A stretch of DNA of 64,000 nucleotides. It comes from Acidobacteriota bacterium. GTDB taxonomy: Bacteria; Acidobacteriota; Thermoanaerobaculia; Gp7-AA8. The DNA lies in contig JAJXWV010000064.1 of the NCBI GenBank assembly GCA_021781455.1, forward strand, positions 124,001-188,000. The letters run 5' to 3'. Within the stretch, counting starts at the first letter, position 1, and each line of letters starts with the position of its first letter. Both the position numbers and the translations under genes were made by a program. The notes under the pieces were generated by a model. The model was not told where the DNA came from. It made no database searches and saw nothing but the letters and a program-made list of their open reading frames with translations. Below are positions 1,767 to 63,510 of the stretch, piece by piece.

Positions 1767-1818
1767 ATGATCAGACCGGGACGATGGTTCGCCTGCGATG
1801 GCGGTACCATTCGCGCCC

Positions 1819-3168
1819 ATGTCCGATCCTCGCCACAGCGCCTCGATCATCGCCATCGGCTCGGAGATGCTCGGCATCACGCGCGTGGATACGAACTCGC
1901 TGAAGATCACGGCCGCGCTCGAAAATGCCGGCATTCCGCTCGTTCGAAAGAGCGTCGTCGGCGACAGCCGCGGCGATCTCGTTGCCGAGATCCGTTTCTC
2001 GCTCAGCCACTCCGACATCCTCGTGACCAGTGGCGGCCTGGGGCCGACCGAGGATGATCTGACGAGAGAGGGGCTGGCAGATGCGTTGGGGCTGGAGATA
2101 GAAGTCGATCAGTCGATCGTCGACAAGATCGCGGCGCGCTTCGCCGCGCGCGGCTGGAAGATGCCGGAGGTCAACAAGCGCCAGGCGAACATCTTCCGCG
2201 GGCAGAGGGTTCTCTACAACGAGCGAGGCACGGCACCCGGTTTTCATCTCGTCATCCCCGGCGATCGCAGGGACGCGCAGCAGCGCGTCCGCAGCCCCGG
2301 CGGTGAGGGGGCGACCGAAGTTGCGGACGCGCTGCTGCGCGTCCCTACGGCCGCTGAGACGCACGTCTGGGTTTTTCCCGGAGTTCCGCATGAGCTCGAG
2401 TGGATGGTGGCGAAGTACTTCGTGCCATGGCTCGCGGAAATCAGTGGAGGTCGGGCGCGCCGTCGCCGCGTGCTGAAGATCGGCGGGCTGACCGAATCTG
2501 CCGTCGAGGAGCGCCTGAAGCCGTTCTACGAGGCGCACCCGGGCGAGCCGGTGACGATCCTCGCGTCCCCCGCCGGAATCGAGGTCCACCTGATCACCGA
2601 TGCGGGCGCGGAGGACGCGGAATCGTTCGTCACCACGCGCGAGAACGAGCTGCACGAGATCTTCGGCGCGACCGTCTTCGGCTACGACGACGACACGCTG
2701 GAGTCCGTCATCGGGCGGACGCTCGCCGAGCGTGGAGAAACGGTGGCCACGGCGGAATCGTGCACGGGTGGCCTGCTCGCCTCGCGGATCACCGATATAC
2801 CCGGGTCGTCCGCCTACTTTCTCGGCGGCGCCGTCTGCTACACGGCCGCGGCGAAGACCGATCTCGCGGGAGTCGACGCGGCGCTGATCCGCGCGAACGG
2901 CGAAGTCTCCGAGCCGGTCGCCATCGCCATGGCGCAGGGGATTCGGCAGCGGTTCGGGTCGACGTACGGCATCGGCGTCACCGGCATCGCCGGCCCGACT
3001 GGCGGCACGCCGGAGAAGCCCGTCGGTACCGTGCACATCGCGGTGGCGAGCGCCCTGGCAGTCGAGCATCGCAAGCTGCAGTGGCAGGGGCCGCGGACGA
3101 TCATCAAGTGGTACTCCACACAGCAGGCGCTGGACATGCTCCGGCGCTTCGTTCCGAAGGCGCGATGA
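1819..3168 (+). CDS. cinA: CinA-type nicotinamide-nucleotide amidase/pyrophosphatase
   Basis: Encodes 449 residues from the ATG at 1819 (MSDPRHS); a longer start at 1798 is possible. The N-terminal half is a MoaB/MogA-like COG1058 domain (SGGLGPTEDDLT near 70-81, later VFPGVPHELEWM), and the C-terminal half is the PncC-type NMN deamidase (AESCTGGLLASR near 311, GVTGIAGP near 392). Together they belong to pyridine-nucleotide salvage/housecleaning. The unusual part is residues about 151-176, encoded by an exactly 78-nt palindrome placed between VIPGD and the VFPGVP motif, where family members normally run straight through. The stop overlaps the start of the next gene by ATGA, so the two are probably translationally coupled. 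Confidence 0.93.
   Translation: MSDPRHSASIIAIGSEMLGITRVDTNSLKITAALENAGIPLVRKSVVGDSRGDLVAEIRFSLSHSDILVTSGGLGPTEDDLTREGLADALGLEIEVDQSIVDKIAARFAARGWKMPEVNKRQANIFRGQRVLYNERGTAPGFHLVIPGDRRDAQQRVRSPGGEGATEVADALLRVPTAAETHVWVFPGVPHELEWMVAKYFVPWLAEISGGRARRRRVLKIGGLTESAVEERLKPFYEAHPGEPVTILASPAGIEVHLITDAGAEDAESFVTTRENELHEIFGATVFGYDDDTLESVIGRTLAERGETVATAESCTGGLLASRITDIPGSSAYFLGGAVCYTAAAKTDLAGVDAALIRANGEVSEPVAIAMAQGIRQRFGSTYGIGVTGIAGPTGGTPEKPVGTVHIAVASALAVEHRKLQWQGPRTIIKWYSTQQALDMLRRFVPKAR
2269..2346. repeat. perfect 25-bp inverted repeat inside cinA
   Basis: Arms at 2269-2293 and 2322-2346 are exact reverse complements over 25 nt and are separated by 28 nt. The whole unit is 78 nt, i.e. 26 codons, so it does not shift the frame and contains no stop on the coding strand. 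It would form a very stable GC-rich hairpin in the cinA mRNA. I saw no second copy of these arms in the window. Confidence 0.92.
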
Positions 3169-3881: not shown

Positions 3882-4198
3882 GTCATTCCGAGCGTGAGCG
3901 AGGCTGGGCGGTGCGCCACATCAGCCGTGACCGCTCATTCAGCGTGCCGCCCTTCCGCTCGGATCCCTCGCTGACGCTTCCAAGAAACTCCCATTGTTCA
4001 TGCGGGCTCTGGCGTTCGTTGCCCTTCTCCCCGCCGCTGCGGGGAGAAGGTGCCGAAGGCGGATGAGGGGTCTCCTTTTGAACGAGACGAGACCCCTCAC
4101 CCCGGCCCTCTCCCCGCTGCGGCGGGGAGAGGGGGAACGATCGAGCGTTTCTTCTCTCCGGCGTCGCGCAGGCGCGATTCGATTGCTCGGGATGACAA
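3882..4198 (+). repeat. family II long dispersed element, copy 1
   Basis: Starts TGTCATTCCGAGCG and ends GCTCGGGATGACAAG. Internally it has two nested palindromes: a GGATCC-type block (3900-3985) and a block of CCCTTCTCCCCGC...GCGGGGAGAAGG followed by CCCTCTCCCCGCTGCGGCGGGG. A second copy, in inverse orientation, is at 48361-48685, and an end-to-end shortened relative is at 8721-8837. The short frame beginning MRALAFVALLP is present in both long copies but loses frame after about 11 codons, so the element is treated as non-coding. It fills the whole gap between the HAD gene and rseP. Confidence 0.85.
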
Positions 4199-5525: not shown

Positions 5526-5590
5526 AGTGCTGAGTACTGAGTGCTGAGTACTGAGTGAAAGAATGGCCAGACCACTCAGTACTCAGCACT
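5526..5590. repeat. family III heptad palindrome (TGAGTNC) between dxr and rseP
   Basis: Left arm 5526-5556 is four tandem TGAGTNC-type units, right arm 5574-5590 the complementary units (ACTCAGT, ACTCAGC), with a 17-nt centre. It occupies nearly the whole 74-nt gap between the two genes. Confidence 0.9.
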
Positions 5591-5594
5591 CGTT

Positions 5595-6770: not shown

Positions 6771-6901
6771 AGTGCTGAGTACTGAGTGCTGAGTCCTGAG
6801 TAAGAACGAGACCACTCAGTACTCAGCACTCAGTACTCAGCACTCAGTACTCAGCACTCAGTACTCAGCACTCAGTACTCAGCACTCAGTACTCAGCACT
6901 C
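6771..6901. repeat. family III heptad palindrome with expanded right arm, dxr/cdsA junction
   Basis: The left arm (6771-6801) has about four TGAGTNC units; the right arm (6814-6901) has about twelve units alternating ACTCAGT and ACTCAGC. The strong asymmetry suggests recent tandem expansion of one arm. The centre is only about 12 nt. Confidence 0.92.
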
Positions 6902-18932: not shown

Positions 18933-20056
18933 CCGGAACGCCCGACCGCCTCGTGTCGATCGTTCTCGTGACGTGGAACAGCGCGGCCTGGCTCCCTCGC
19001 TGCCTCGCCGCGATCGCACAGCAGACCTGGCCGTCGCTCGAGCTGATCGCAGTCGACAACGCCTCGCAGGACGATTCGCCGAGTGTTCTGGAGACCCTCG
19101 GGTCCCGGCCTGAGCTCGGCCGCCGCGTTCCTGTGACGATCATCCGCAACGCGAGCAACGCCGGCTTTTCCCGCGCCGTCAATCAGGCGATCGAAGCAGC
19201 GTCCGGCGCATTCGTTCTGCTCATCAATCCCGACGCCTCGATGGAGCGCGACTACCTCGAGCAGCTGATCCACGCCTTCGATGCGGCAGGCGAGGCGTTC
19301 GGCGCAGCCACAGGCCTGCTCATGCGCGGTGAAGGCAACGGCATCACCCCGACCGACATCGTCGATTCCATGGGCATTCGCATGACCCGCAGCGGCCGCC
19401 ATCTCGACGTCGGGCAGGGGCGGCGGCTAGGGGAGGACAAGCGAGGGCTGCGGGAATTGCAGACCGCAGACCGCAGACCGCAGACGGCAGACTCTCTGGC
19501 GGATCACGAACATGTCGATCACGATGGCGAGCCGAACCGCGGTCTGCGGTCTGCGGTCTGCGGTCCCGTCTACGAAGTCTTCGGTGTTTCCGGCGCCGCC
19601 GCGCTGTTCCGCATGTCGTTCATCCGCGACCTCTCCATCGACGGCGAGTTCCTCGATGAAGACTTCTTCGCCTTCCGCGAGGACGCCGACCTGGCCTGGC
19701 GCGGCCGGATCTTCGGCTGGCGGGCGCTCTGTGTTCCAGCTGCAGTCGGGGCTCACGTCCGGACCGTGACCCCGGAGCGGCGCCGCGACGTGCCGCCGGC
19801 GATCAACATGCACTCCGTGAAGAACCGGTTTCTGCTGCGCCTGAAGAACGAGGGCGCCTGGCTGGCGTTGCGCAACGCGCCCTTCGAGATCGCACGCGAT
19901 CTCGTGACCATCGGTGCCGTGCTCACGGTCGAGCGCACCTCGCTGCCGGCGCTTTCGTGGCTTTGGCGGAACCGTTCGCGAATTCGTGAGCGTCGTCGCC
20001 ACGTCCAGCGCCGGCGGCGCGTTTCCGATCGGTCCCTGGCCGGGTGGTTCCGATGA
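18917..20056 (+). CDS. glycosyltransferase family 2 with an in-frame palindromic insertion
   Basis: Encodes 379 residues from the ATG at 18917 inside the end of the preceding gene. It has the GT2 landmarks LVSIVLVTWNSAAW, AVDNASQDDS, SNAGFSRAVNQAI, VLLINPDASM and DEDFFAFREDADLAWRG. Residues about 181-216 (from ELQTADRRPQTADS to RGLRSAVCGP) have no counterpart in the family pattern and are encoded by the GCAGACC heptad palindrome at 19459-19564, just before the VFGVSGAAALFR block. The frame stays open, so the protein may still be functional with a loop insertion; alternatively the enzyme could be impaired. The stop overlaps the next start by ATGA. Confidence 0.87.
   Translation: MERGLTGTPDRLVSIVLVTWNSAAWLPRCLAAIAQQTWPSLELIAVDNASQDDSPSVLETLGSRPELGRRVPVTIIRNASNAGFSRAVNQAIEAASGAFVLLINPDASMERDYLEQLIHAFDAAGEAFGAATGLLMRGEGNGITPTDIVDSMGIRMTRSGRHLDVGQGRRLGEDKRGLRELQTADRRPQTADSLADHEHVDHDGEPNRGLRSAVCGPVYEVFGVSGAAALFRMSFIRDLSIDGEFLDEDFFAFREDADLAWRGRIFGWRALCVPAAVGAHVRTVTPERRRDVPPAINMHSVKNRFLLRLKNEGAWLALRNAPFEIARDLVTIGAVLTVERTSLPALSWLWRNRSRIRERRRHVQRRRRVSDRSLAGWFR
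19459..19564. repeat. family VI heptad palindrome (GCAGACC) inside a GT2 gene
   Basis: Five tandem units at 19459-19493 (GCAGACC three times, GCAGACG, GCAGACT) and three tandem GGTCTGC units at 19541-19561 form the arms; the centre is about 47 nt. The element is transparent to the reading frame of the host gene. Confidence 0.92.
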
Positions 20057-23376: not shown

Positions 23377-24707
23377 TGGCGCTCGTTCTGGCCGCGCTCT
23401 TCACGACGCTCGTCCTCGGGATTCCGGCGGCGCTGGCAATTGACAGAGAGTGCCGCGGCGGAGCGCTGGTCGGCCTGTCGTTTCTCTATGGCAGCGGCCT
23501 GCTTTACGGAGCGCTTCTCACGTTGTCGCTGCTGCACATCACATGGTCCGCCATTACGACCACAGTCGCGGCCCTCGCCGTCGCCGCAGGGCTCGCATTC
23601 GTGGCCCGGCGAAAGAGCCTCGAGGCCACCGGCACGGCGGGGCGGGCCTGGTCGCCCGCCGCGCTGCCGATCGATCTGCTGACCGCCTACACGCTCTTCT
23701 CGTACGCGCTCTACGCTACGCTGGCCCGCGTCTGGGAGTGGGATTTCTGGGCGATCTGGGGGCTGAAAGCGCGCGTTTTCGTCGAGGCCAGCGGGATCGA
23801 CTGGCGCTTCCTGCGCAGCCCGTTCAACGAATTCTGTCACCCCGACTATCCGCTGCTACTGCCGCTCAATTACGCCTACACGGCGCTCATCGGCGGCGGC
23901 TGGGACGACCGATGGCTCGGTCTCTTCGGCGTTGCGTACGGCCTGGCGCTGCTCCTCATCGTGCGGAGCCTGGCCAGCCGGGAGATGCCGCCAGTTGCCG
24001 CCGCGGTCCTGACGTTCGCGGCCACAGCCTTTGCGCTGTCGCACTATGTCGGGCTCGCGGAAGCGCCGATGATCGCGTTCGGCAGCGCGGGGGTGCTCTT
24101 CATCCGGCGCGCAGTCATGTTCGACGAACGGGCCGCAATGCGTCACGGCGCAGTGCTGCTCGGCCTGGCAGGCTCGACGAAGAACGAAGGGCTGGCGCTG
24201 ATCGTAGCGGTGGGGGCGGCGATGCTACTCGTCGATCGGAGCCATTGGCGACGTCTGCTGCGCCTCTGGCCAGCCGTCGCCATCGTGGCGCCCTGGACGA
24301 TTATCCGGATCGCCCTGAATCTTCATACGGACATCGTTCGCGGCGGCGCGTTTGCGCGGGCTGTCATCCGGCTTCACGAAGGCATTTCCCTGCTGCAGCG
24401 GCTCATCGCTCAACTTCCGGACTCGTGGATGTGGATCCTGATGCTCGCGGCGCTCGTGATTGCCAGCCATCGGGTTCGCGCCGCGGAGCGCTTCGTCTTC
24501 AGCGTCGTTGCCATTCAGCTGTTTTTCTATGTCGGGGCGTACCTGGTGACGCCGCACGATCTGGAGTGGCACATCGAGACCTCCTGGCCCCGCCTGACGC
24601 GGCAGATTGCCGTCCCGCTGCTCTTTTCCGTGACTGTCCTGCTTGCGCGAACGTTCGCGGGCGAAGAAACTCTCGCCCATGCCGAAGCTGGACAAGACCT
24701 CCACTGA
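23376..24707 (+). CDS. polytopic membrane protein, GT-C-like
   Basis: Encodes 443 residues with about ten to eleven helices; the ATG at 23376 overlaps the previous stop. The segment RVWEWDFWAIWGLKARVF after the third helix has the acidic residue expected of an external catalytic loop, and GSTKNEGLAL is a conserved-looking cytoplasmic block. Together with its small partner it may transfer a sugar from a polyprenyl donor. The family cannot be named from sequence reading alone. It overlaps the PLP decarboxylase gene by 29 nt. Confidence 0.7.
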   Translation: MALVLAALFTTLVLGIPAALAIDRECRGGALVGLSFLYGSGLLYGALLTLSLLHITWSAITTTVAALAVAAGLAFVARRKSLEATGTAGRAWSPAALPIDLLTAYTLFSYALYATLARVWEWDFWAIWGLKARVFVEASGIDWRFLRSPFNEFCHPDYPLLLPLNYAYTALIGGGWDDRWLGLFGVAYGLALLLIVRSLASREMPPVAAAVLTFAATAFALSHYVGLAEAPMIAFGSAGVLFIRRAVMFDERAAMRHGAVLLGLAGSTKNEGLALIVAVGAAMLLVDRSHWRRLLRLWPAVAIVAPWTIIRIALNLHTDIVRGGAFARAVIRLHEGISLLQRLIAQLPDSWMWILMLAALVIASHRVRAAERFVFSVVAIQLFFYVGAYLVTPHDLEWHIETSWPRLTRQIAVPLLFSVTVLLARTFAGEETLAHAEAGQDLH

Positions 24708-34851: not shown

Positions 34852-34947
34852 AGTCCTGAGTCCTGAGTCCTGAGTCCTGAGTCCTGAGAACAGACGGGAT
34901 AGACTCGCCCTTTCAGGCTCAGCACTCAGGACTCAGGACTCAGGACT
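34852..34947. repeat. family III heptad palindrome between dCMP deaminase and tsaB
   Basis: Left arm 34852-34888 is five tandem AGTCCTG units; right arm 34918-34947 is GCACTCA then three GGACTCA units and touches the tsaB ATG directly. The arms pair with one mismatch. The AGGA of the last right-arm units is the only ribosome-site-like sequence for tsaB. Confidence 0.93.
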
Positions 34948-40037: not shown

Positions 40038-40116
40038 AGTCCTGAGTCCTGAGTGCTGAGTCCTGAGTTCTGAGAAGCGTGACCCGCTCAGGACTCAGCA
40101 CTCAGGACTCAGGACT
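40038..40116. repeat. family III heptad palindrome with perfect 30-bp arms
   Basis: Arms 40038-40067 and 40087-40116 are exact complements over 30 nt, including the order of the variable base in each TGAGTNC unit (C, C, G, C). The right arm ends one base before the aminotransferase stop codon. Confidence 0.95.
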
Positions 40117-62241: not shown

Positions 62242-62332
62242 GTGTGGGACAGGCTTTCCAGCCTGTCCTGTTCTCGCCCTGTTTGGGGGGGGCAGGCTGG
62301 AAAGCCTGCCCTACACCGGGGTCAGAATGACG
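62242..62332. repeat. palindrome GGACAGGCTTTCCAGCCTG / GGCAGGCTGGAAAGCCTGCC
   Basis: Arms 62242-62268 and 62291-62316 each contain a small hairpin and are complementary to each other (GTGTGGGACAGG.../...CCTGCCCTACAC). The right part with ACACCGGGG recurs at 38396-38430 fused to a family I element. Confidence 0.85.
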
Positions 62333-62821: not shown

Positions 62822-63437
62822 GAACAGCATTATCCCGCTCGTGGAAGTGGAGCGTGTGCGCAGGGCCGTGGACGAGGCGCACGACCTCGCCGCGGCGCGA
62901 TTCCGCGAAGCCTTCGACACGAGCGCGTTGCCGCCCGAGGAGCGGTTCGGGATGTACATGCAGATGCGCGCCGACTCCCTGCTCGAGGCGGCGAAGTACA
63001 TTCGCCTTCGCCATGGACGTCTCGCGTACGCGTTTGACGGCCGCTCGGTCACGCCGTACGTGATCGCCGGCGAGCCGGTCTACTCGCACTTCGATGTGCC
63101 CCGAATTGCGGAGGCCATCTACGAGTATTTCGTTCTTTCCGGCGAGATCTTCGCCACGCCGGCATGGAATCTGACGCGCGTCATCGCCAGCGCTGACGAA
63201 TACGGCGCAGCGCTGAAGATGATGACGCAGCCGCAACTGGTCGATGTCACGATCGCTTCCTTTCTCCCTGAAGCCGACTTGCGCGAGGACGGCTCCGCGC
63301 TCCTGCACGTGACCGTCTACACCCGCGCCGCCGAGGAGCGCGTCGAGCGCCGGACTCTCGCCCTCGACGCCTGGAACGAGCTCTCCTTCCACTCGCGCCA
63401 GCTGATCGCCGAAGGATCGGCCGGCGTCGCTGTCTGA
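62820..63437 (+). CDS. conserved-looking protein of unknown function
   Basis: Encodes 205 residues starting ATG at 62820; an upstream extension exists in the open frame but runs opposite the signal-peptide codons of the divergent gene. The sequence is soluble, with FRIAEAIYEYFVL-type helices and a C-terminal beta section (LLHVTVYTRAAEERVERRTLALD). I recognise no family. The TGA stop is part of the first heptad of the palindrome at 63434. It is convergent with recO. Confidence 0.72.
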   Translation: MNSIIPLVEVERVRRAVDEAHDLAAARFREAFDTSALPPEERFGMYMQMRADSLLEAAKYIRLRHGRLAYAFDGRSVTPYVIAGEPVYSHFDVPRIAEAIYEYFVLSGEIFATPAWNLTRVIASADEYGAALKMMTQPQLVDVTIASFLPEADLREDGSALLHVTVYTRAAEERVERRTLALDAWNELSFHSRQLIAEGSAGVAV

Positions 63438-63510
63438 GTCCTGAGTGCTGAGTCCTGAGTCCTGAGTAGAATCGCGGTCACTCAGGACTCAGCACTCAGG
63501 ACTCAGCACT
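63434..63510. repeat. family III heptad palindrome overlapping two gene ends
   Basis: Left arm of four TGAGTNC units (63434-63467) and right arm of four complementary units (63480-63510) around a 12-nt centre. The left arm contains the stop of the plus gene, and the right arm encodes the last residues (SAES) and stop of recO. Confidence 0.93.

Follow-up and report, generated by a model that had tools for sequence, protein, structure and literature searches.

REPINs, doublets of REP units, have been defined previously (PMC3116915), and RAYTs, the REP-associated tyrosine transposases, are defined by a rayt gene lying between inverted REPs (PMC2817692). The RAYT known as TnpA_REP recognizes GTAG together with the hairpin and cleaves at CT (PMC8266576). 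REPs located inside genes, of both the GTAG and the CGTC type, were described in 2013; they are frequently dimers encoding 20 to 30 residues. The GTAG type was described in Opitutus terrae, Thauera, and others, and recB in two Xanthomonas species is reported to carry REPs that differ from each other but lie at nearly the same position (PMC3733652). The palindromic elements of Rickettsia (RPEs) are assigned in the same report to the CGTC class, and they are described as lying in frame inside ORFs and as having no associated transposase gene (PMC3733652).

Here we describe a palindrome inside the cinA gene of an acidobacterium, found in a stretch of 64,000 nt (referred to below as the window). 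It is very probably a copy of a genus-restricted, nonautonomous REPIN family moved by a RAYT of the HuH-Y1 type that is encoded on contig C1. With REPIN/BIME systems that have a RAYT (TnpA_REP), this family shares GTAG-footed inverted doublets, >100 copies, a REP-enclosed RAYT, the lack of any target duplication seen, and a narrow taxonomic range; it differs in that about a fifth of its ends are GCAG and in its acidobacterial host, probably a member of gp7/Thermoanaerobaculia. With the intragenic GTAG REPs, as described in PMC3733652, it shares the occurrence of REP dimers within an ORF that supply 20 to 30 residues, and cinA, with distinct REPs at nearly the same position in two genera, parallels Xanthomonas recB; the main text of that report makes no mention of cinA. 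Intragenic REPs are already known, and what is new is the host, the gene, the repeat member, and the identification of the likely RAYT. No description of this repeat sequence was found in the literature searched, which was covered in part. At this locus, the gain of protein sequence from a REPIN can be traced cleanly in an acidobacterium, with the empty state represented by some 60 orthologues, of which almost all lack the insert. REPIN-derived protein segments, and the places where they are tolerated, thereby become countable across a whole bacterial family.

The palindrome in cinA

The product of the ORF has Pfam matches to MoCF_biosynth, CinA_KH, and CinA, and its closest relatives are CinA records of a Thermoanaerobaculia bacterium and of Acidobacteria gp7, in agreement with the probable acidobacterial host named by the original prediction. 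That prediction had also described a palindrome with perfect 25-nt arms between two conserved CinA blocks. Both blocks are present, and the arms are exact reverse complements of each other within an uninterrupted reading frame (Table 1). Comparison with other copies places the boundaries of the element at a GCAG on the left and a CTAC on the right, and the insert is consequently 82 nt long, not 78 nt as first proposed.

The RNA fold predicted for positions 2255 to 2360 is very stable (−82.9 kcal/mol; z = −9.3 versus shuffles). A 21-nt core, with ≤3 mismatches allowed, matches the window four times, always in the cinA element, against an expectation of 0.02. A chance palindrome is excluded by this count, by the z value of the RNA fold, and by the genome-wide REP hits relative to the control (see below). 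The sequence is that of a draft assembly, and the palindrome is known from the assembled contig. Longer inverted repeats, based on heptamers and with perfect arms of 27 to 30 nt, occur elsewhere in the window. Translational bypass, with ribosomes skipping the hairpin, was considered and is unnecessary because the reading frame runs through the insert without a break.

Table 1. Coordinates of the cinA element, the candidate RAYT gene, and other genic copies (positions without a prefix are those of the window)
Feature	Position	Strand	Description
cinA ORF	1798..3168	+	456 aa; MoCF_biosynth/COG1058, CinA_KH, and CinA/PncC domains; open across the insert
REPIN (REP doublet) in cinA	2267..2348	.	82 nt; ends GYAG...CTRC from comparison of 62 copies; touches codons 157-184
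Left REP unit	2267..2290	+	GCAG + GGACGCGC AGCA GCGCGTCC; GCAG is a GTAG variant
Right REP unit, inverted	2325..2348	-	GTAG + GGACGCGC AGCA GCGCGTCC
Left perfect arm (original prediction)	2269..2293	+	Exact reverse complement of 2322-2346
Right perfect arm (original prediction)	2322..2346	+	Exact reverse complement of 2269-2293
Spacer between perfect arms	2294..2321	+	28 nt; variable, length and sequence differ between copies
RAYT gene	C1:23757-24311 (= L079:1560-2114)	-	184 aa; between two clusters of these REPs
Genic REPIN	L021		Interrupts polyketide KR domain
Genic REPIN	L159		Polyketide synthase, between KS linker and KR
Genic REPIN	L158		RNA uracil methyltransferase, between TRAM and methyltransferase parts
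Genic REPIN	L160		Between methyltransferase and AMP-binding domain
REPIN near gene end	L145		Iron-sulfur protein

Copy number and structure of the repeat

Further copies of the palindrome, which the original prediction had implied, are abundant. The 106-nt cinA region was searched against the genome of the organism itself (4.88 Mb in 90 contigs) and gave at least 82 matches at about 40 places (40 of 207 candidates scored), and a REP-core pattern with ≤2 mismatches gave 244 hits, compared to 0 for a control pattern. One fixed REP pattern had 230 hits in this genome and 122 in the sole congener, and it had none in 16 other genomes of the bacterial family; the REPIN family is genus restricted. 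Roughly a hundred copies of the hairpin are present in this acidobacterium, probably scattered by a transposase-like enzyme.

Each arm of the cinA element is itself a hairpin, consisting of a GYAG foot, an 8-bp stem, and a 4-nt loop, and the end sequence of the family is GTAGGGACGC. Across 62 distinct doublets, the foot was GTAG at 90 of 124 ends and GCAG at 27; aligned copies have a left end of GTAG or GCAG and a right end of CTAC or CTGC, with similarity lost directly beyond these ends. The cinA copy, with its ends read inward, has GCAG on the left and GTAG on the right. Doublet length is mostly 77 to 87 nt, with a variable spacer, and most of the REP hits listed form plus/minus pairs whose starts lie about 36 to 75 nt apart, typically 50 to 55 nt. 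A check for target-site duplication, which had been proposed with the original prediction, was negative: over the 62 doublets, direct matches at the junctions were no commoner than in shuffled pairs (k = 1 to 12). Because the copies share sharp GYAG/CTRC ends, take the form of doublets, and lack target-site duplication, the palindrome is identified as two inverted GTAG-tagged REP units, i.e., a REPIN/BIME.

The size of about 82 nt and the terminal inverted symmetry would also suit a MITE belonging to an insertion sequence of the DDE type that has terminal inverted repeats. This origin is very improbable, however, given that target-site duplication is lacking over 62 copies, that each arm is a hairpin with a GTAG foot, and that the sole transposase gene found to lie between such ends belongs to the HuH-Y1 RAYTs.

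The candidate RAYT and the proposed mechanism

The distances between REP hits on contig C1 led to the RAYT gene, which is bracketed by hits at 23555 to 23721 and 24379 to 24559; each of these two clusters ends in an inverted doublet. The encoded protein has the HuH motif MPNHFH, a WQ motif, and the Tyr motif YIANNP of the Y1 superfamily, which are near the subclass 2.7 signature of PMC6006769. It matches the NCBIfam model REP_Tyr_transpos (NF047646) with an E value of 5e-14, although its score of 52 bits is below the curated cutoff of 80; it has no Pfam match, and among PDB chains the best hit, a weak one (E = 0.3), is TnpA_REP 4er8. The nearest homologues (34 to 40% identity, same class) are adjoined by GTAGGGGC-type hairpins, a repeat related to but distinct from that in cinA, as joint divergence of gene and repeat would predict. 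No full-length copy of the gene was found in the 87%-complete assembly of the congener, despite its 122 REPs.

The Pfam Y1_Tnp model identified 14 genes in the same genome, which were rejected as the cognate RAYT: REPs of the cinA family are absent from the vicinity of all 14, and several lie between hairpins of other families. Each of the Y1_Tnp genes of L032, L038, L041, L042, and L044 has its own set of flanking hairpins with GTAG or GGAG feet, and several RAYT/REP systems seem to coexist in this genome. The window itself holds, at 62291 to 62314 (minus strand), a single REP from a different family, GTAGGGCAGGCTTTCCAGCCTGCC, which is of the type that flanks the Y1_Tnp gene of L038.

The tag and the RAYT together decide against the identity originally proposed, a Rickettsia-type palindromic element, CGTC tagged and REP-like, with its mover unspecified. 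The resemblance in behavior is real, in that both are in-frame palindromes in genes that contribute 20 to 30 residues and occur in many copies, but the tag at the ends of the cinA repeat is GTAG/GCAG rather than CGTC, and the repeat encloses a RAYT gene, whereas CGTC repeats are reported to have no associated transposase gene (PMC3733652). The hosts of RPEs are, in addition, obligate intracellular organisms. Membership in the RPEs is contradicted by the tag and the RAYT association and is scarcely credible; what holds of the earlier view is that a mobile palindrome, present in many copies, lies in frame in a gene, with its family being that of the GTAG-REP/RAYT systems.

For the REPIN, we propose the following course of events. 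In single-stranded DNA, the REPs would fold into hairpins, and the RAYT would bind a hairpin with its GTAG (as single-stranded GTAG-GGACGCGCAGCAGCGCGTCC), nick beside it, and join the strand, whether excised or copied, at a new position without duplicating the target site. The cinA copy would have survived because the frame meets no stop, the overall gain in length is divisible by three, and the insertion fell in a turn between two β strands, with about 31 to 32 extra residues being tolerated as a flexible loop in the MoCF-like domain. The REPIN reading is based on observed copy number, structure, sharp ends, lack of duplication, the REP-enclosed RAYT, and the derived state of cinA (see below), while the mobility of these REPINs is what we infer. 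By analogy, GCAG copies, including the left end of the cinA element, may be less mobile, because a change to GCAG strongly lowered cleavage in one TnpA_REP system (PMC8266576).

Insertion into the CinA loop

The loop that holds the insert was measured between the motifs N..G[ST]AP[GA] and PG[VP]P in about 60 orthologues, a few of which were unmeasurable. It comprises 24 to 31 residues, mostly 25, in Acidobacteriota, Actinomycetota, Clostridia, Deltaproteobacteria, and others and 34 and 41 residues in two Myxococcota, compared to 57 in the window CinA and 51 in that of G006, a genome of the same bacterial family. Because the loop of the orthologues is nearly constant, the insert in cinA is the derived state. 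Its absence from nearly all orthologues is as the original prediction had supposed, and neither of the contrary outcomes that it had named, the same loop in distant phyla or a genome with no other copy, occurred.

The net gain was underestimated at 26 residues, as the window CinA exceeds its nearest relatives by 31 to 32 residues. This is equivalent to 93 to 96 nt, more than the 82 nt of the element, which on its own fails to account for the full length change: 82 is not a multiple of three, and 11 to 14 nt are left over. Candidate sources of the additional 11 to 14 nt are an older, longer loop and flanking DNA carried along with the element. A search for cinA in the congener assembly gave no hit, and hence no insert-free cinA was seen within the genus.

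Alignment-invariant columns (with the window protein included) cover the known CinA motifs, and the window CinA is presumably functional. An AlphaFold2 model (32 sequences) had a mean pLDDT of 88.3 and placed insert residues 157 to 184 between strands at 148 to 154 and 187 to 193, with residues 164 to 180 forming the sole internal stretch with a pLDDT of <50. As modeled, the insert would lengthen a turn in the MoCF-like domain, and breakage of the fold is not predicted.

In G006, which belongs to another genus, the corresponding CinA loop holds a REP copy of an unrelated family (L046:1966-2006; G006 C272). This insert contains GCAGCGGCGGCCGCTTCCGCCGCCG, two mismatches from GGAGCGGCGGCCGCTTCGGCCGCCG, and the latter has 170 hits in the G006 genome at ≤3 mismatches, versus 2 for a control. 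The insert region matches at least 39 other places in G006, the best match being 61 nt and most being about 40 nt, past the hairpin. In G009, a Y1_Tnp gene is flanked by hairpins of the GGAGCGGCGGCCGCTTCGGCCGCCG family, and in G006 one such hairpin is close to a weak Y1_Tnp hit. Because the G006 insert belongs to a different repeated hairpin family, two unrelated REP families entered the same CinA loop independently. It is nevertheless rather doubtful that this turn is a recurrent landing site for REPs; if it were, the explanation could be a preference of the RAYT or selection for a REP-encoded loop in a protein related to NMN deamidase.

Co-option of the insert, with the REP peptide or the mRNA hairpin regulating CinA synthesis or activity, would be compatible with a REPIN origin. 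The very stable hairpin predicted in the mRNA and the occupation of the same loop by an unrelated REP copy in another genus are in its favor, but the loop is predicted at low confidence, as for a disordered segment, the insert sequence is that of the generic repeat, and purifying selection alone predicts in-frame survival in loops. We consider such a role quite improbable and regard the cinA copy as a REPIN tolerated in a turn.

Other genic copies and other inverted repeats

The genic fraction of the family was estimated from a sample of 51 distinct doublets of the same genome. The codon score was poor at separating true from false frames, and therefore genes were accepted on Pfam support alone. 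In addition to cinA, four in-frame genic REPINs were found, with Pfam domains of the same ORF either preceding and following the element or interrupted by it, and a further copy lies near the end of a gene (Table 1). ORFs that run across REPINs in L151, L003, and L149 are without domain support and were not counted as genic. About 5 or 6 of the 51 doublets (approximately a tenth) lie inside domain-supported genes; the family is mostly extragenic, and the cinA copy is an exception. Bacterial genomes are typically coding over a much larger proportion than this, a shortfall that would be expected from the removal of most genic insertions.

The window contains a separate class of long inverted repeats, distinct from REPs, whose arms are tandem heptamers (40038 to 40116, 63434 to 63506, 34852 to 34947, 6771 to 6886, 19462 to 19565, and 5526 to 5591). 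The arms are, e.g., (AGTCCTG)n/(CAGGACT)n, and those at 19462 are (GACCGCA)n/(TGCGGTC)n. The CTGAGTC-type heptamer had about 500 pattern hits in the genome and is present in 9 of 18 genomes of the family; the reversed pattern is invalid as a control because this heptamer is a mirror palindrome. Imperfect inverted repeats of the CCTTCTCCCCGC.../GCGGGGAGAAGG and CGCCGGCTCAGAGTGAC types are found at positions 4013 to 4143 and 58 to 266 of the window.
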